A DNA stretch of 64,000 bases from Anthocerotibacter panamensis C109. GTDB lineage: Bacteria > Cyanobacteriota > Cyanobacteriia > Gloeobacterales > Anthocerotibacteraceae. The notes beneath the pieces were generated by a model. The model saw only the letters and a list, made by a program, of their open reading frames with translations, made no database searches and was not told the DNA's origin. Shown one piece after another: positions 24,773 to 59,578 of the stretch (position 1 is its first letter; every line of letters begins with the position of its first letter). Where the stretch lies: contig NZ_CP062698.1 in the NCBI RefSeq assembly GCF_018389385.1, positions 2,607,501-2,671,500 on the forward strand, in the 5' to 3' direction. The translations under genes were made by a program, and so were the position numbers.

Positions 24773-27099
24773 GTCGCTTCTGAGATAGGAAGTGGAAGTA
24801 ATGGAAACATACGTAGCTGATTTCACTTTGTCCATTAAACACTGAAGCGTCGCTTCTGAGATAGGAAGTGGAAGTAATGGAAACTCCGCATAGCGGCTAA
24901 GCCCACCGCCTTTCCCTGATGTCGCTTCTGAGATAGGAAGTGGAAGTAATGGAAACCTACTTTAAGACGAAGAACGTTAAGAATTTCGGTCTTGTCGCTT
25001 CTGAGATAGGAAGTGGAAGTAATGGAAACTCTCGGAACCTTAAATTGAACGGCTTTATCGTAGTCCCAGTCGCTTCTGAGATAGGAAGTGGAAGTAATGG
25101 AAACGTTTGCGGTCTGTGGCGGCAGAAACTAATACACTAATGTCGCTTCTGAGATAGGAAGTGGAAGTAATGGAAACACCGCCTTCCGGCACACCAAACG
25201 ACTCGGTTAGAGATTCGTGTCGCTTCTGAGATAGGAAGTGGAAGTAATGGAAACCCCTGCCACGTGCAAAACTATAAAATCTTTTCTGGTGTCGCTTCTG
25301 AGATAGGAAGTGGAAGTAATGGAAACTAGGTGCAAAAATTACCGCTCAAGACGCTTGAGGAAGTCGCTTCTGAGATAGGAAGTGGAAGTAATGGAAACCG
25401 AGGTTATCCCGGCTGCCACAAGCGGCACAGGGGGTCGCTTCTGAGATAGGAAGTGGAAGTAATGGAAACCGAGGTTATCCCGGCTGCCACAAGCGGCACA
25501 GGGGGTCGCTTCTGAGATAGGAAGTGGAAGTAATGGAAACGGGCTAAAAGGCTGTATCATGGTTATTACCTCTTTGGGGTCGCTTCTGAGATAGGAAGTG
25601 GAAGTAATGGAAACGGGCTAAAAGGCTGTATCATGGTTATTACCTCTTTGGGGTCGCTTCTGAGATAGGAAGTGGAAGTAATGGAAACATCGGCATTGCC
25701 TTGATTATCTAAAACCACTTCCATGTCGCTTCTGAGATAGGAAGTGGAAGTAATGGAAACAGCGCTTATAATCTCGTACCCATCGCTGATGCTAGTGTCG
25801 CTTCTGAGATAGGAAGTGGAAGTAATGGAAACCGAGGTTATCCCGGCTGCCACAAGCGGCACAGGGGGTCGCTTCTGAGATAGGAAGTGGAAGTAATGGA
25901 AATGCTATCTGGGCTTGGGAGCCCGTCAGAGCAGCAAGTCCCGTCGCTTCTGAGATAGGAAGTGGAAGTAATGGAAACCACGCAAAGGCATCGTAGTTTG
26001 ATTGGGGGTAAAAGCTTAAGTCGCTTCTGAGATAGGAAGTGGAAGTAATGGAAACTACAGTTGTTTTAGCCCGCGATGCCCGCAGGTATAAGTAAGTCGC
26101 TTCTGAGATAGGAAGTGGAAGTAATGGAAACACACTCTGGCTTTAGCCCTGTTCTTAGACCCTTTGACCCGTCGTCGCTTCTGAGATAGGAAGTGGAAGT
26201 AATGGAAACGAGCCCACAAATCCAGGCGTTCATGGATTTGCCTTGTGTCGCTTCTGAGATAGGAAGTGGAAGTAATGGAAACTCTAGCCCGTGTAAGGAC
26301 ACGTTTTTGCGGTCAACAACAGCGTCGCTTCTGAGATAGGAAGTGGAAGTAATGGAAACACTAGGAGGGGATCAGCAGGTTTCGCATGATGCGCGACACC
26401 TGGTCGCTTCTGAGATAGGAAGTGGAAGTAATGGAAACTTACCGCGACCATCTTGAAAAAGCGCTAGAACAAGCTTTGTCGCTTCTGAGATAGGAAGTGG
26501 AAGTAATGGAAACTCAAGTTCAAATTTCATTTCTTTTCCCTTAACCGTGTCGCTTCTGAGATAGGAAGTGGAAGTAATGGAAACTGATAGACATCTTTCA
26601 CTTTGATGCTATCACCATGACTGTCGCTTCTGAGATAGGAAGTGGAAGTAATGGAAACTCAAGTTCAAATTTCATTTCTTTTCCCTTAACCGTGTCGCTT
26701 CTGAGATAGGAAGTGGAAGTAATGGAAACATAATGTGCGGGCGATAAAGTTTGACCAAATCTCCATTTTGTCGCTTCTGAGATAGGAAGTGGAAGTAATG
26801 GAAACTAGCAGCTCTAGCAGCCTTCATCCTCAAAAAAGACGGGTCGCTTCTGAGATAGGAAGTGGAAGTAATGGAAACCGGCATCGGCGATCTCGCCTAC
26901 GAAGATCGTTTCGAAGTCGCTTCTGAGGTAGGAAGTGGAAGTAATGGAAACTAATTTGCTTGCAAATCGCTTCCCGCTGTTCAGGAGTGTCGCTTCTGAG
27001 ATAGAGAATGGAAATCCATCGGTAGAGGCGTAACATGTTGCGTTTCTACTGTTTATGCCGGTTGTCACTTTTGGGATAAAGAGTGAAATCAATAGAAAT
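24773..27099 (+). CRISPR. CRISPR array, 32 repeat units of 36 bp
   Basis: The first repeat is 24773-24808: GTCGCTTCTGAGATAGGAAG at the 5' side and TGGAAGTAATGGAAAC at the 3' side. Starts recur every 71-79 bp, giving spacers of 35-43 bp. Units 1-29 are identical except unit 16 (25868), which ends AAAT. Unit 30 (26916) has one A-to-G change. Unit 31 (26989) and unit 32 (27064) are decayed and mark the distal end. Duplicated spacers occur after repeats 9, 10 and 15 (one sequence three times), after 11 and 12, and after 24 and 26. The array lies on the same strand as the type III-B genes that follow. Confidence 0.98.
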
Positions 27100-27145
27100 C
27101 CCAGCCCTGATTCGTCGTTCGCAACAGATGCTTGTAACACTAGCC

Positions 27146-27500: not shown

Positions 27501-27620
27501 AAATGCACGTATCTATAAAGAAACACACCTAAAATACAAGCTACACACCTCCGTTTTCTTTCACGCACGTTTGTTTCTTGGTACACACCTCTATTTCTTT
27601 GTACACACCTCTGTTACTTT
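27501..27620. repeat. Six tandem units with an exact 20-bp period
   Basis: Units begin at 27501, 27521, 27541, 27561, 27581 and 27601. The consensus is about NNACACACCT followed by a T-rich CTNTTTCTTT. ACACACCT is exact in units 2, 3, 5 and 6 and altered in units 1 and 4. The 20-bp step equals about two helical turns, as in arrays of protein-binding sites. It lies 110 bp upstream of the gene at 27731. Confidence 0.8.
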
Positions 27621-27730
27621 ATGTGAAATGAAAATAGGCTCAAATTTTTGATAATTCTTTATAAACCACCCCTAGTCAAGCCCAACAAACCCTGATACGT
27701 TAAAGAGCATAAAGTACAAAGGATAAACAT

Positions 27731-28087
27731 ATGGCTTTCAAGAAACGTGGTTCCAAAGACCTAGAAAAAGCTCAAACACGAGCTACCGGACTCGCCTCTA
27801 TAGACCCCGCTCTAGATTTAGGGGATGGCATGACCCTTGCCGCCTATACCGCACTGATTACCGAAATGCGCGGTCAGCTTGAGAAATACAACATCGCCCT
27901 CGCTAACATAGACGAAATTGGGAACACAGTAGATGCGTTAGAAAAACGGCTTGCCGACTACTCCGAACGGATGCTTGCAGGCATCACCCTCAAATATGGT
28001 AAAGACAGCAGCCAATACGAAAAAGCCGGAGGCATCCGCAAAAGTGAGCGCAAACGCCCCGTCCGCAAGCCCAAGACCACACCCTAA
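27731..28087 (+). CDS. Conserved hypothetical cyanobacterial protein
   Basis: The 118-residue protein starts 8 bp after AAAGGAT. It has a basic first segment (AFKKRGSKDLEKAQ), then two helices with heptad character (about 38-92; MRGQLEKYNIALANIDEIGN, VDALEKRLADYSERM), and a strongly basic tail (about 93-118; SERKRPVRKPKTTP). This pattern suggests a small nucleic-acid-associated or dimerising protein. It lies between the CRISPR array and cas10 on the same strand. Whether it takes part in CRISPR function is unknown. Confidence 0.75.
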   Translation: MAFKKRGSKDLEKAQTRATGLASIDPALDLGDGMTLAAYTALITEMRGQLEKYNIALANIDEIGNTVDALEKRLADYSERMLAGITLKYGKDSSQYEKAGGIRKSERKRPVRKPKTTP

Positions 28088-28173: not shown

Positions 28174-31100
28174 ATGACCAACGAAGACAACCAAGCCTAC
28201 TACCGCCGTAAGCTTTTTGCCCTGTTGCATGACCCGCAACTGAAGAGTTTGTATAAAAAAAAAGGAGGAAAAGGTCCATGGGAAAAACTAAAAGTTTTAA
28301 ATCAGCACAAGCATATCAAAAAATGGTGGGATGAAAATGGAATTGAGTCTGACACTATTGGGGCAACATCTGACCGGGTATCTATCGCCAAAGAAGATAA
28401 AATTTACTGCAATGCTCTTCAAGAAGATGGCAAAACCAGTTTAGAAATTCGCCATCCGATCAGCGGTCAGTCCCATCGGTTAATATTTGACGGGTTATTA
28501 AACGAGAATGAATTAAAATCTTTTGAAGAAGAAGGGCTTAAAGATATTTTAGAGTCAGAAAATCCTGAAGAAGTATTTTGGTGGTGCTGGCGCTTTTATC
28601 CCGAAAAAGTTGCTCAAGCCATAGGTAACCAACAATCACTTCTGCTTCCTGCCGAAACTCGTATCCCCGATTGCCCAATTCATAGCCACAACAGCACTGT
28701 ATCCGCAATAGCTGGTGCTTTATTTCCAAAAATCTGGAAATCAGGTAAATCCGAATATCCTTACCTACTTATCTTCACCTTTTCCCCCATCCAAGAGTTT
28801 ATAAAATCCTCGCGTAAGTTCCTTGATTTCTGGGCGGGGTCTTACTTATTGCACTACCTGAGCGCCCATCTCTGTTGGTATGTCGCCAAAAACTATGGCC
28901 CCGATGCTGTGATTACCCCCTCGCTTTGGGGACAGGAGATTATTGATGCGTTTATTCGTGAAGATGAAGAACTTGGTTTAAAAGAGTTTTTACCTCCTGC
29001 AAAGCTAGAATCCCTAACTACCGCCGGATTCCCCAATGTCATCACCGTGCTTGTCTCTGGTGAAGTAGAAGCTAAAAAACTAGGCGAAAAACTAACCCAA
29101 AAACTCAATGAAGAATGGAAGACGATTGGTACTAAAGTCCGGGAAGCTATCAAAAAGAACATCATGGCTGTTGTAACCGAGAAGCTCTGGAATGAGCTAG
29201 CACCGGAATTTGGAGGTAACTCACCTGAAAACCCATCCCGGCGCGAATTCTTGGGTTATCAGCAAGGCGGACAGTGGGAATGGAACAAGCTCTGGGATGC
29301 GCAACTCGAAGGCACCTGGGAACACTACTGGACCGCCGTTCCACTCGGTGATCCAAATCAAGATTTAAGTATAAATCGGGAAAAAGAAAACTACTCTAAC
29401 TGGAAAACGTACCAAAATGAAATCGCTCAAGCCCGTACCGAACTCCCCACACCTGCTGAAGAACGTTCCTTTAACATGATCAACGTTGGTACATGGTGGG
29501 GGAGCCTCCAAGGACGCTTAGGCCAACTGATCCAAGCCGTAAAAAACACCCGCAACTGGGAACTCCCCGTCGCCCCCGGTGAACGCTCCACTATCTCCGG
29601 GCAATACAGCGCCGCCCATCCCCGCCATCTCTATAATGAACGTTTCCGCGAAGGCGGCGGACTCCCCGCCCAATCCATGCGCCTTTTTTGGCGCGTCATG
29701 GCAGAAGCATTCCCCGGACTTTTTAACGGTTCAGAGCGGCTCAACTGCATCGAACTGACCAAACGCATGGCCTGGGTCCATGGCGGAGTTGCGGAATCTT
29801 TGGGTGTAAATGTAACCACAGCAACAGGACAGCCTGACTACGAAGCCCTGATCCGTTTCCCAAACCTTAGTTCCATCGCCGCTGCCCGTTTTGCCTACGA
29901 ACATCCAGAAAAAATCAAAGAGTACTGGGAGGTTCTCAACCGCTCAATACACGCTGAGCTTCCTCGCTACCGTGAGAAGTTTGGTTCCCTGACCCGTCGG
30001 CCCTTTCAAGTTCCCAATGTTGACCAAGCGCTAGGCGATTACAACGGAGTCATGTTCTCTAGCAAATGGTTAGCCGATGACCTGGGAGTTGAAGAATCGC
30101 AGACTCTACGCGAGCTAGTTAGTAGTGCGCACAAAGAAGAAGAATCGCAGACTCTACGCGAGCTAGTTAGTAGTGCGCACAAAGAAATAGATATCAAAGA
30201 CTGGAGTCCCGCAGACTGGTGGGTAATCGTGCTCGGTGATGGCGACAGTATGGGTAGTTATGTCAATGGCAGCCGACTGAAAACCTATGAGCATTACCTT
30301 GCTACCGAAACCTGTGAAAAGTTAAGCGACCGGGGTGGAGATTGGGCTGAATTGCTTAACACCAAAAAACGCATGGGGCCCGCTACCCACGTCGGCCTAA
30401 ACCGCGCCCTATTAGACTTCTCCAACCAACTCGTCCCCTACCTCACCGAAGACCGCTTCTGTGGCAGAGTCGTCTATGCCGGGGGCGATGATGTCATGGC
30501 AGTACTCCCCCTTGAAGATACACCGGAATACTTGCTTTCTCTGCGTGCCGCCTGGAGCGGAGCAGAAGATCCAAAGGGTAAATTCAAAGATGAGGGTGGT
30601 TACTGGGAACCCAAATCGGCCCTAAAGGGACTACCCGACCGACCCCTCTTCACCATGGGCAAGGACGCCACCATGAGCTTGGGGATTATCTTCGCTCACA
30701 AGAGCGTGCCCCTGCCCACAGTTCTAGAAAATCTCTGGGAAGCCGAAAAAGAACGCGCCAAAAAATTAGTGGGCGTTGGCAAAGCCACTGACCCCGGCTT
30801 TATTCCCGCCAAAGATGGCCTCTGTTTCCGCGTCATCTACAGCTCCGGCAACACCCTCGAAGCCCTGATGAAAGGCCACCTTTACCAGGATTGGTGGGAA
30901 TTCATGCAATTGGCAGACAGCGAATTCTCCCCCGTCCTCTACCGCCTCTGTGAAGAACTCCCCCTCCGTTGCGTCGTCACAGGCGACCTAAAGTTATTTC
31001 ATAAAGCTAGCGAAGCCATTCTTGAGCGCCGCGAGAAAAAATTGAGCGACGACCTAAAAAATGCACTGCTTGACTGGATCGACAAATGGGAAAAATGGGC

Positions 31101-31263
31101 CTGGGGAGCCTATTGGAAAGATAAGCTTGACAAGCAACCCCTCGGCGTAAAGCCTGAAGACCTCGCCCAACTCCTGCGCTTTAGCGCCTTCTGGCTCGAC
31201 AAAATGGGCAACCTTACCCAATTTGACCCAAAACCCGCTCATGAACAGCAGGAGGGGACATGA
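28174..31263 (+). CDS. cmr2: Type III-B CRISPR Cas10/Cmr2
   Basis: The 1029-residue large subunit of the Cmr complex keeps LFALLHDP near the N-terminus (remnant HD-like site). A long helical region follows with SPIQEFIKSSRKFLDFWAGS, a Cmr2 hallmark. The first palm motif is VLGDGDSMGSYVNG (about 687-700) and the cyclase motif is AGGDDVMA, with GGDD at 770-773. An intact GGDD predicts cyclic oligoadenylate synthesis on target RNA binding. A perfect 48-bp tandem duplication (30091-30138 and 30139-30186) repeats 16 residues before the first palm motif. The stop overlaps cmr3. Confidence 0.95.
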   Translation: MTNEDNQAYYRRKLFALLHDPQLKSLYKKKGGKGPWEKLKVLNQHKHIKKWWDENGIESDTIGATSDRVSIAKEDKIYCNALQEDGKTSLEIRHPISGQSHRLIFDGLLNENELKSFEEEGLKDILESENPEEVFWWCWRFYPEKVAQAIGNQQSLLLPAETRIPDCPIHSHNSTVSAIAGALFPKIWKSGKSEYPYLLIFTFSPIQEFIKSSRKFLDFWAGSYLLHYLSAHLCWYVAKNYGPDAVITPSLWGQEIIDAFIREDEELGLKEFLPPAKLESLTTAGFPNVITVLVSGEVEAKKLGEKLTQKLNEEWKTIGTKVREAIKKNIMAVVTEKLWNELAPEFGGNSPENPSRREFLGYQQGGQWEWNKLWDAQLEGTWEHYWTAVPLGDPNQDLSINREKENYSNWKTYQNEIAQARTELPTPAEERSFNMINVGTWWGSLQGRLGQLIQAVKNTRNWELPVAPGERSTISGQYSAAHPRHLYNERFREGGGLPAQSMRLFWRVMAEAFPGLFNGSERLNCIELTKRMAWVHGGVAESLGVNVTTATGQPDYEALIRFPNLSSIAAARFAYEHPEKIKEYWEVLNRSIHAELPRYREKFGSLTRRPFQVPNVDQALGDYNGVMFSSKWLADDLGVEESQTLRELVSSAHKEEESQTLRELVSSAHKEIDIKDWSPADWWVIVLGDGDSMGSYVNGSRLKTYEHYLATETCEKLSDRGGDWAELLNTKKRMGPATHVGLNRALLDFSNQLVPYLTEDRFCGRVVYAGGDDVMAVLPLEDTPEYLLSLRAAWSGAEDPKGKFKDEGGYWEPKSALKGLPDRPLFTMGKDATMSLGIIFAHKSVPLPTVLENLWEAEKERAKKLVGVGKATDPGFIPAKDGLCFRVIYSSGNTLEALMKGHLYQDWWEFMQLADSEFSPVLYRLCEELPLRCVVTGDLKLFHKASEAILERREKKLSDDLKNALLDWIDKWEKWAWGAYWKDKLDKQPLGVKPEDLAQLLRFSAFWLDKMGNLTQFDPKPAHEQQEGT

Positions 31264-33580: not shown

Positions 33581-35530
33581 GTGAATCAACGTCCCCAACG
33601 TCAGAATCCACCTGGTAACAATCCTCCAAGGCAGGGAGGAGGTAGACAACAGCCTGCTCCTATACCCGAGCCATCTCCTTGGCTAGAGGGAATTCAGCCT
33701 AACCCAGGTGGATCGGCTAGTTTTGTTGAATATCTCCGCTGGCTCCGACAAAAATCGGGCAGCACTACTATGGATGCAGGAACTCAAGTCCAGCTTTTGA
33801 GTAAATTTGACGGAAATAACTTTAGTACAGCGTTGAACCGACTTACTAATCGAACTAGACTACTAGCGAATCCGCAGCAAGGCCATGTTCACTTTGAAGT
33901 CACCTGCCCTTGGCGTATTCGCGTTGGAGGTACCAAAGGACCAGAATCGATGCTTCTTCCGGCTTTCGATAACCTAGGTATGCCTTACATTCCTAGTAGC
34001 ACCCTGCGGGGAGTAGCACGGGCTATGGCAGTGAAAGAAATCGGCGAAGAAGACGCGAAAAAAATTTTTGGCAGTATTGATGTCAATCAAGGAAGCATGG
34101 GTAAAGTCACTTTTTTAGATGCTTATCCACTGCCAGGAAACAACCATAAAGGTGGTCTCAAGCCTGATATGGCAAATGCTATATGGAAATGGAATGGGAA
34201 TAATCCTCCTACTTATAGCCCAAATCCCAATACATTCCTCTCTCTAGAAAAGCCAACCTTTGTGATTGGCCTGCGTCGTAATGGATGTAGTGATGACGAG
34301 TGGGCTAATGTTCAAAAATGGCTTAAAAATGGCTTGGCTCAGGGCATAGGTTCACAAGTTAATAGCGGCTATGGCTCTTTGGAGGCTGATGGGAGACCAA
34401 AACCAATAAGAGAAGATACGATTCTACAGGTTCCCTTTGAGTTGGAGGGTCAATTGAGCCACGGACGGAAAAGGTTTATTCAATGGAATCTGAATAACCG
34501 TCAGCAATGGCAGATGCGTGGCGCATCTGAGGCCGAAGTTCGCCCAGTAGCTTTCAAAAATATGCTTCGGTACTGGTTCCGATCCCTGGCATTTGGTGTA
34601 CTTCCCCCTCAGCAAGTCCGATTGTTAGAGGTCAAGATCTTTGGAGGAATTGAACCTGCTCCACATACTGGGCTGTTTCGTGTAGAAATCAGGGACGGTA
34701 GGGTAGTAAATGACAACGCACAAAGCTCTCATGATCCCTCTGGGCTAATTACTGGAAACCTGGTTCTGAGGAACTCATCTCAGACTAGGAGTTTGCCAGA
34801 GTATGAAAGAGCTTCACTTCCAAACCTTTTGAAGAACCTTACTTGGTTGATGTTCCATCTTGGAGGGGTTGGGCAAGGAGCAAGGAGACCCTGCTATTCA
34901 CGCCAACGTTCTCCCTGGTATCGAGGTTCAAAGCTATTGCTGACTCAGCCAGATTCTTTCTTTCAAACTCCTGATAACCCTCAAGATTTTGCTTTGCTTT
35001 TTTCAGATCGAAGTCGGCACTTCTTTGAAGCTCTGGCCTTATTTTCTAATCATAGGATCAGATTAAATCAACTCAATGCAGTAACTCAAGTTTCTCCTTC
35101 TACTTGGGCTGAGGCATTTGATGTAAGCTCTCGTCTTTACATTGTTTCAGGTGAAGGTCTAGGAACACCTAATAAGTCTCATGCTCTAGATATACTGCAT
35201 GACTTCTTCCATCAAATTACAGATCCGATTGCCGACTTAAGACAACGAGCAAAAAATTCAAAGAACCAGCAAGAAAAAAGCGAACTAGATCAACAAGTAT
35301 CAACGCATTTAACTCGGGGGAAGAATCTCTGTGGTGGTACAGAAACTGATTATCCTACTAGTGGAGATAGCCGTAACGCTATACCTTCTCCTGTTTGGAT
35401 CGCTGATTACCAAGACTTCCAGTTAGTCCTAGTGTTTGGAGCAACAAAAGATCCTCGCTCAACTTATTTAAAAGTATTGTTAGAAAATTCTGAAAGGTCA
35501 ATCAAGCTCTGGCCCTTCCCCAATCCATGA
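33581..35530 (+). CDS. Fused Cmr6-Cmr1 RAMP protein of the type III-B complex
   Basis: The 649-residue protein starts at a GTG after TAGGAGG. A Pro/Gln-rich tail (1-45) precedes a Cmr6-like part (about 80-275) with MPYIPSSTLRGVARAMA and the GIGSQVNSGYGSLE glycine loop. A Cmr1-like part follows (about 285-649) with EVRPVAFKNMLRYWFRSLAF and LEVKIFGGIEP, the Cmr1 N-terminal pattern, and a later HLGGVGQGARRPCYSR loop. No separate cmr1 or cmr6 gene is present. Both subunits normally cap the 3' end of the crRNA filament, so a fusion is structurally reasonable. It overlaps the transposase-like gene by ATGA. Confidence 0.88.
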   Translation: MNQRPQRQNPPGNNPPRQGGGRQQPAPIPEPSPWLEGIQPNPGGSASFVEYLRWLRQKSGSTTMDAGTQVQLLSKFDGNNFSTALNRLTNRTRLLANPQQGHVHFEVTCPWRIRVGGTKGPESMLLPAFDNLGMPYIPSSTLRGVARAMAVKEIGEEDAKKIFGSIDVNQGSMGKVTFLDAYPLPGNNHKGGLKPDMANAIWKWNGNNPPTYSPNPNTFLSLEKPTFVIGLRRNGCSDDEWANVQKWLKNGLAQGIGSQVNSGYGSLEADGRPKPIREDTILQVPFELEGQLSHGRKRFIQWNLNNRQQWQMRGASEAEVRPVAFKNMLRYWFRSLAFGVLPPQQVRLLEVKIFGGIEPAPHTGLFRVEIRDGRVVNDNAQSSHDPSGLITGNLVLRNSSQTRSLPEYERASLPNLLKNLTWLMFHLGGVGQGARRPCYSRQRSPWYRGSKLLLTQPDSFFQTPDNPQDFALLFSDRSRHFFEALALFSNHRIRLNQLNAVTQVSPSTWAEAFDVSSRLYIVSGEGLGTPNKSHALDILHDFFHQITDPIADLRQRAKNSKNQQEKSELDQQVSTHLTRGKNLCGGTETDYPTSGDSRNAIPSPVWIADYQDFQLVLVFGATKDPRSTYLKVLLENSERSIKLWPFPNP

Positions 35531-36180
35531 CCTACGACCCCACCCGCCACCACCGCCGCTCTATCCGGCTCAAAGGCTACGACTACACCCAGCCCGGAGC
35601 TTACTTTGTGACGATGGTAACTAAAGACCGGGCACCAATCCTCTCGTACATCATCCAGGGTACCGTCCTGCTCAGCCCCATCGGAGAAATCGTCCACCGC
35701 TGCTGGTATCATCTACCCAAGCACTTCCCCAATATCCAAGTCACACCCTTCGTCGTCATGCCCGACCACATCCACGGCATCATCACTATCAATCTAGATC
35801 GTCCCACTCCCTCTATCCCCGCCCCGCCTACCCCAGAGGAGCGTAAGGGTAATGCATTCGCCGAGGACATGGGCGGGCAGGAGTCAAGCTTCGCAGCGGA
35901 TGCATTACCCCGACAGCTATCTCCATCTCGACAGCCATCTCCATCTCGACAGCGACCCGACCTCCACGGCAGCACACCTGGATCCCTCGCCGCCATCCTC
36001 CAAAACTACAAATCCATCACCACCCGCAAAGCCAACCAACACAAACAAACCCCCGGCACTCACCTATGGCAACGGGACTACTATGAGCGGATTATCCGCG
36101 ATACCCAGGAATTAGCACGGATTGAGAACTATATCCATGACAATCCCCGCCAATGGCAAGAGCAGAAAGAGATACACTAA
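35527..36180 (+). CDS. RAYT-type (REP-associated Y1/HUH) transposase
   Basis: The 217-residue protein starts RHHRRSIRLKGYDYTQPGAY and carries the HUH-type motif MPDHIHGII. It also has a C-terminal WQRDYYERIIRD segment that supplies the catalytic Tyr. The layout is that of single-strand transposases of the TnpA-REP group. A low-complexity insert between the motifs includes an 18-bp tandem repeat (units from 35911, 35929 and the start of a third at 35947). Its ATG overlaps the fusion gene's TGA, so it may be translated with the CRISPR operon. Confidence 0.88.
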   Translation: MTYDPTRHHRRSIRLKGYDYTQPGAYFVTMVTKDRAPILSYIIQGTVLLSPIGEIVHRCWYHLPKHFPNIQVTPFVVMPDHIHGIITINLDRPTPSIPAPPTPEERKGNAFAEDMGGQESSFAADALPRQLSPSRQPSPSRQRPDLHGSTPGSLAAILQNYKSITTRKANQHKQTPGTHLWQRDYYERIIRDTQELARIENYIHDNPRQWQEQKEIH

Positions 36181-57607: not shown

Positions 57608-59578
57608 ATGGCTGTAAGCCCCGTAAGCTATGCTGCGCCACCCACGCCCTGGTCGCGGCAGCTAGCTGAACCCCAAATTGATCCCTCTGCTTATATCCTT
57701 TCTTTTTCGAATGTGATTGGGGATGTGCGGATTGGGGCCAATGTCCTTGTTGCTCCGGGAGTCTCAATCCGGGCTGACGAGGGGAGCCCTTTTCATATTG
57801 GTTCGGGCACGAATGTCCAGGATGGCGTCGTCATCCATGGCCTAGAGCAAGGACGGGTAGTCGGTGATGACCAGAACCGCTACTCTGTCTGGATTGGCAA
57901 AAATAGCTCAATCACCCACATGGCGCTCATCCACGGTCCAGCCTATGTCGGGGAGGACTGCTTCATCGGATTTCGCTCCACTGTCTTCAACGCTCGGGTG
58001 GGCAAGGGCTGTATCGTGATGGCGCACGCGCTAATCCAGGATGTCGAGATCCCGGAGGGCCGCTTTGTTGCCTCAGGCTCTATTATCACCAGCCAGCAGC
58101 AGGCCAACCAGTTGCCCAAAGCCCAGGACGTAGAGGTAAAGTTCGCGCGCCATGTAGTGGGTATCAATGACGCCCTACGCGCCGGTTATCACTGCGCCAA
58201 TAATATTGCCTGTATCGCCCCGATCCGCACTGAGATGACCAGGGACGGTGCGCTGGAGGTTGAACTTGAAAACCCGCCTACCACGCTGGGTGAGGCTACG
58301 CACAGGAGGGATGCTGCTATGAGTTTAGAGGTTCTGGATCAGGTGCACCGCCTGCTCCACCAGGGCTATCGCATTGGGCTGGAATACGCAGATGAGCGCC
58401 GCTTCCGCACTAGTTCCTGGACCAGCTATCCTATCGCTTCCACGCGCTCCCCAGAGATTTTGGCAGCGCTAGAGTCCTGTCTGGCTGAGCACACGGGGGA
58501 GTATGTGCGTCTGATCGGCATCGACCCGAAGGACCGCCGCCGCGTCTCGGAGACCACGATTCAACGCCCCGGTAGCCCTGCCCAGATCAAGGGCCAGGGT
58601 TCTACCCCGTCCTACCCCGTCTCCAACAACCGATCTAGCAGCCCCACCGGTGGCCTCAGTGCCGAAACTGTGGAGCAAGTGCGCCGTCTTTTGGCCCAGG
58701 GTTATCGTATTGGGACCGAGCACGCCGACCGCCGCCGCTTCCAGACCAGTTCCTGGAACAGTTGCGCCCCGATAACTTCCCAGCGCGAGCCCGAAGTCTT
58801 CGCGACCCTAGAAGCTTGTCTGGCTGAGCACACCGGGGAGTACGTGCGTCTGATTGGTATCGATCCGAAGGACCGCCGCCGTGTCCTGGAGACCACGATT
58901 CAACGCCCCGATGGTCCGGTGGGTTCTAGTGCGGGTTCTAGTGCGAATGCACCTGCCTACACCCCTGCCCGCACGAGTAGTTCCACCACCAGCTTGAGCA
59001 CGGAGACTGTGACTCAGGTGCGGAACCTCCTCGCTCAGGGCTATCGAGTCGCGGCGGAATATGCCGACCGCCGCCGCTTCCAGACCAGTTCCTGGAACAG
59101 TTGCGCCCCGATAACTTCCCAGCGCGAGCCCGAAGTCTTCGCGACCCTAGAAGCTTGTCTGGCTGAGCACACCGGGGAGTACGTGCGTCTGATTGGTATC
59201 GATCCGAAGGACCGCCGCCGTGTCCTGGAGACCACGATTCAACGCCCCGATGGTCCGGTGGGTTCTAGTGCGAATGCACCTGCCTACACCCCTGCCCGCA
59301 CGAGTAGTTCCACCACCAGCTTGAGCACGGAGACTGTGACTCAGGTGCGGAACCTCCTCGCTCAGGGCTATCGAGTCGCGGCGGAATATGCCGACCCGCG
59401 CCGGTTCCGCACCAGTTCGTGGACCAGTTGCCCGCCGATTACTGCTCAACGGGAAGCAGAAGTTTTAGCGGCCCTAGAGTCCTGTCTGGCCGAGCACACC
59501 GGGGAGTATATGCGCCTGATTGGCATTGATCCCAAGGACAAGCGCCGCGTCTTGGAGACCACCATTCAACGGCCCTAG
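57608..59578 (+). CDS. ccmM: Carboxysome scaffold CcmM with four RbcS-like repeats
   Basis: The 656-residue protein has an N-terminal gamma-carbonic-anhydrase domain (about 1-205) with left-handed helix repeats and His ligands in VVIHGLEQ and [19 protein letters not shown] Cys pair (about 197-203) matches the redox-active disulfide of active gamma-CA CcmM. Four Rubisco-small-subunit-like repeats follow (from about residues 240, 350, 460 and 575), each ending CLAEHTGEY(V/M)RLIGIDPKD. Repeats 2 and 3 and their linkers are almost identical in DNA. The repeats bind Rubisco and condense it inside the shell. Confidence 0.97.

Follow-up and report, generated by a model that had tools for sequence, protein, structure and literature searches.

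Iteron arrays of plasmid replication origins are built from direct repeats, each roughly two turns of the helix long, and in type III toxin-antitoxin loci of the ToxIN type a small gene is preceded by tandem repeats that differ from family to family. KfrA of the IncU plasmid RA3, a DNA-binding protein of alpha-helical structure, has its gene preceded by a repetitive operator; the protein has an N-terminal HTH followed by a 300-residue helical tail, and its operator is made up of 9-bp repeats that overlap the promoter (PMC7783346). In the ParMRC families of Clostridium perfringens plasmids, the small DNA-binding protein ParR is paired with parC, a direct-repeat array with units of 17-20 bp in some cases, and the families exist in parallel within one cell with cognate-only binding (PMC9426499). 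The locus considered here lies in a window of 64,000 nucleotides (the whole stretch of DNA analysed) from the chromosome of Anthocerotibacter panamensis C109, and likewise places a direct-repeat array beside the gene for a small protein.

The 20-bp block and the 118-residue protein

A preliminary description of the window had noted an exact 20-bp-period block of six units before the cas genes. Autocorrelation of this block (positions 27501-27620, forward strand) bears this out, as the lag-20 self-match is 63/100, the highest among lags 15-30 across the 64-kb window, a value that was not attained when the intergenic region was shuffled 5000 times (shuffle maximum 51). Tandem Repeats Finder independently recovered the last four units (27542-27620, period 20). 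The motif assigned to all six units, ACACACCT, is exact in four of them (units 2, 3, 5 and 6); however, unit 1 carries ATGCACGT and unit 4 carries ACGCACGT, and because of these deviations the core common to all units is AYRCACST. Likewise, the T-rich second half that had been described is found in units 3-6 but not in units 1-2, where it is A-rich. As 20 bp is approximately 1.9 turns of B-DNA, the proposed placement of the motif on one face of the helix holds only approximately for the block; the 21-bp arrays found in the rest of the family, described below, fit it exactly. The paired core at block spacing has no second occurrence anywhere in the 4.19-Mb genome. The block repeat differs from the CRISPR repeat, as had been stated, and the block lacks the arrangement of a CRISPR array, in which that same repeat alternates with spacers; neither is it a short heptamer cyanobacterial repeat (STRR), there being no 7-bp unit.

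The block ends 110 bp before the start codon of the 118-residue gene, and the intervening leader (27621-27730, forward strand) contains a weak promoter-like match at 27628-27655 that, at 9/12, is at chance level. The gene itself (27731-28087, forward strand) was characterised by sequence comparison and structure prediction and codes for a basic, predominantly helical protein of an unnamed family. Its pI is 9.6, with values of 9.1-9.8 for four family members, and an RKSERKRP-like tail is conserved in many members. We found no match to a Pfam, NCBIfam or PADLOC family, only insignificant PHROG matches, and no credible solved relative in a search of the PDB. An AlphaFold2 model built from an alignment of three sequences (mean pLDDT 84.9, pTM 0.55) predicts helices at residues 9-24, 36-89 and 94-98 and a basic tail, with no strands; this predicted fold contains no recognised DNA-binding domain, and a fold search with it gave no significant match in the PDB or among viral models. 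The C109 genome codes for a second copy of the family, located 34 kb from the window copy and 51% identical to it.

Arrays upstream of the gene family

Taking as family members the best matches in the sampled genomes, we found the family in 20 of 386 Cyanobacteriota genomes, with at least 11 copies in one genome, while a profile search, some of whose matches are very remote, recovered it from 24 of 395 Bacteroidota genomes. Phage records and viral contigs yielded no members and plasmids a single match, and no description of the family or its arrays was found in the open-licence papers searched. To compare upstream regions, one procedure was applied to the family genes, whose start codons were assigned by script, and to 535 control windows drawn from the same loci; an array was scored if it had at least five units of at least 70% identity within 1 kb upstream, thresholds that were our own choice, and units built from shorter repeats were left out. 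Such arrays precede 58 of the 79 distinct family genes versus 15 of the 535 control windows. Of the 58 family arrays, 56 were fitted with a period of 21 or 22, and those fitted as 22 have real spacings of 21, whereas a period of 21 was seen in only five controls. Among 545 unit spacings in the family arrays, 522 are 21 bp, 18 are 20 bp and 5 are 22 bp, 20-bp variants being the window copy and one other locus (L117). A length of 21 bp is two turns of B-DNA. The arrays have a median of 9 units and end a median of 177 bp before the start codon. Seven Bacteroidota members that we wrote out, including remote ones, also have 21-bp arrays upstream. By the criteria used, 21 of the 79 members have no array, and the most divergent cyanobacterial member, which is GC-rich, has its array downstream of the gene. 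The link that had been drawn between the block and the 118-residue gene, together with the suggested binding of the block by this basic protein, gains indirect support, as in two phyla most tested family members have upstream an array of their own with a period of approximately 21 bp.

The sequence of the repeat is, however, not conserved along with the architecture and the period, so that the expectation of conservation in related strains holds for the latter two only. Distant family copies each have a different repeat sequence upstream: unit similarity is 16.9 of 21 positions at 90% protein identity or above and 14.8 of 21 at 80-85%, and below about 55% it equals that of shuffled units (9.3 of 21). 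A drop in unit similarity with protein identity is expected if array and protein change together, although shared inheritance of array and gene would yield the same relation even without binding. Purifying selection acts on the proteins themselves, with dN/dS values of 0.05-0.39 across 13 close pairs. That the period is held at two turns of B-DNA despite full replacement of the motif points to a constraint at the level of the DNA.

Two further features of the arrays were considered and rejected as general properties. Strong dyad symmetry of the units was not found, palindromes being weakly enriched (mean z 0.78), and dimer binding is therefore not evident; at locus L034 the gene is followed by the unit in inverted orientation, but this is not general across 58 loci (mean z 0.48). 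The distance that separates the arrays from the start codon makes it less than obvious that they act by simply blocking RNA polymerase. In part of the family, a loose TTTTGCTGA-like element is located some 70 bp ahead of the start.

Genomic context and alternative explanations

In the window, a CRISPR array (approximately 24786-27101, forward strand) has its trailer end about 400 bp before the block, and the next gene downstream, cas10/cmr2 (28174-31263, forward strand), begins 86 bp past the stop codon of the 118-residue gene and heads a type III-B (cmr) operon. The second family copy in C109 likewise adjoins the trailer end of another CRISPR array. The same genome contains an array without a gene (G000:C1:2332573-2332803, locus L146) that has the motif of this second copy and adjoins a duplicated CRISPR trailer about 270 kb from it. 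In other genomes, L060, L077 and L095 are family copies within 6 kb of CRISPR-like arrays. Some additional features of the window were noted: cas10/cmr2 contains a perfect 48-bp tandem duplication (30091-30186); positions 33581-35530 code for a 649-residue protein in which weak Cmr1-like matches come after a Cmr6-like domain, which suggests a fused subunit; the open reading frame that ends the cmr operon (35527-36180) overlaps the preceding gene by 4 bp and has, at residues 153-207, a partial match to a REP-associated tyrosine transposase; and a tandem repeat with a 327-bp unit (2.6 copies) is found at 58724-59575.

This setting, with both C109 copies at CRISPR trailer ends and cmr2 so close behind, would suit the suggestion in the preliminary description that the block is an array of operator sites for a CRISPR regulator. 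However, only three or four of the 62 other family loci have a CRISPR-like array within 6 kb. In 60 relatives, the next downstream genes are split about evenly between the two strands, and in none of them is a same-strand gene found within 120 bp, making the window copy an exception among family loci. The neighbours of the relatives are heterogeneous, the commonest family being Uma2 (9 of 104). With most copies standing alone beside unrelated genes, an operator specific to the CRISPR/cmr operon does not describe the general function, and we regard it as very unlikely. The other function that had been put forward, an origin-like set of iterons, was rejected together with a partition locus: the proteins adjoining the block contain no initiator domain, no partition NTPase was identified beside the 118-residue gene, whose neighbours in the window are cmr genes, and ParM, ParA and TubZ are absent from the 25 commonest families among the 104 neighbours of relatives. 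It is harder still to credit that the arrays evolve as neutral minisatellites or that they encode heptad-repeat peptides. Both copy number and units are homogenised in the way of minisatellites, but neutral arrays should vary in period and position, and the control windows contain few arrays, of mixed periods. As 21 bp is seven codons, many arrays do contain an open frame, which is the chance expectation for a short repeated unit; however, nine of the 58 arrays carry stops in all six frames and some, in the window and at L117, are spaced at 20 bp, which is evidence against coding, and coding heptads were rejected.

An array that acts as RNA, with repeated small transcripts to which the protein binds as in a type III toxin-antitoxin system or as to a decoy, would account for tandem repeats before a small gene that are unlike for each paralogue, which is the type III layout, and several array units are partly palindromic. 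Against this, the only Rfam match in the 64-kb window is to tRNA, with no RNA family at the block, a fixed period of 21 bp suits the helical repeat of B-DNA, uninterrupted 6-bp palindromic centres such as GGTACC and GAATTC cannot form hairpins there without a loop, and the protein has no evident toxin family or fold, and we consider this explanation rather unlikely. Also unlikely, in our judgement, is that we are dealing with a small cassette, mobile or selfish, whose array is a protein-bound end for recombination or transposition, although several observations on inheritance fit it. In several genome pairs, some from one genus, homology spans array, leader and gene (approximately 0.8 kb) and ends at both sides, and between some loci conservation runs from the first unit to just beyond the stop codon; in the pairs L147/L148, L066/L116 and L076/L118 this module aligns at 77-91% while the flanks do not. 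Copy number ranges from 1 to at least 11, and arrays without a gene exist: in addition to L146, an array at L181:4334-4491 has neither family gene nor leader and lies beside a flank shared with gene-bearing genomes. However, no transposase or integrase domain, target-site duplication or clean empty site was found, the pairs L071/L102 and L107/L118 are syntenic over kilobases, and copies within one genome are mostly old and diverged rather than recent bursts. A search with the joined flanks of L148 gave no clean empty insertion site and instead met near relatives that hold the same module at the same place and one relative (L181) that has kept the array but not the gene, the remaining sites being unclear; movement of the module is therefore possible at most.

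Proposed function and comparison with known systems

The explanation that we favour, with a probability of roughly 0.6, is that the block is the array half of an array-plus-gene module whose protein would act through binding to the array beside its gene. We infer this pairing of each protein with its own array because the period is constrained at the DNA level and the adjacent gene is the array's constant partner. The small, basic, mostly helical protein would bind along the array, probably with oligomers lined up on a single face of the helix, and the resulting nucleoprotein patch would control transcription of its own gene or the local DNA structure. Paralogues within one genome have unlike array sequences and would thereby be insulated from cross-talk. 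The module in front of the cmr operon may in addition influence cmr transcription, although this would be secondary and a consequence of its position.

Taken together, the family with its arrays looks like an undescribed set of self-contained modules of a protein plus its binding array. We raise more tentatively, as a possibility that we would not yet favour, that these modules are an undescribed class of locus in which each small basic protein recognises, beside its own gene, a private satellite-like array with a period of approximately 21 bp that is continually re-written, with many insulated pairs per chromosome in two phyla. If true, such a class would parallel in bacteria the co-evolution of satellite DNA and the protein that binds it. 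If the proteins do bind their own arrays, a single genome can carry a natural set of at least 10 orthogonal protein-array pairs with a near-fixed period, and orthologues would present pairs of sequences that diverge stepwise, making joint change in the specificity of a protein and its repeated binding site directly testable. The arrays also give a context to a multi-copy gene family that is blank in the databases searched, and they warn against the assumption that an array of this kind in the vicinity of cas genes must be a CRISPR regulator.

Unlike iteron origins, the block has no initiator gene identified beside it and there are many unlike arrays per chromosome, and the locus departs from ToxIN-type loci in repeat length and in having no Rfam match and no related toxin family. 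As in ParR/parC, a small protein, here a putative binder, is associated with a direct-repeat array in parallel pairs; however, no ParM-like NTPase was identified beside the 118-residue gene, the module is chromosomal here, and the copy number in a genome reaches at least 11. ParR is a ribbon-helix-helix protein; the model of the 118-residue protein, built from only three sequences, is helical without strands and has no significant PDB match. The module resembles KfrA in pairing a predicted helical protein with repeats upstream of its own gene, but the protein has only 118 residues, no predicted HTH and no Pfam match, and its units are of approximately 21 bp and end about 180 bp before the gene. 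The KfrA operator overlaps the promoter; the arrays described here end 110 bp (window copy) or a median of 177 bp (family) before the start codon. The locus falls outside both systems on the features tested and has no detectable homology to either, and by analogy its likeness would be a functional one, to KfrA with its operator and to orthogonal ParR/parC pairs.
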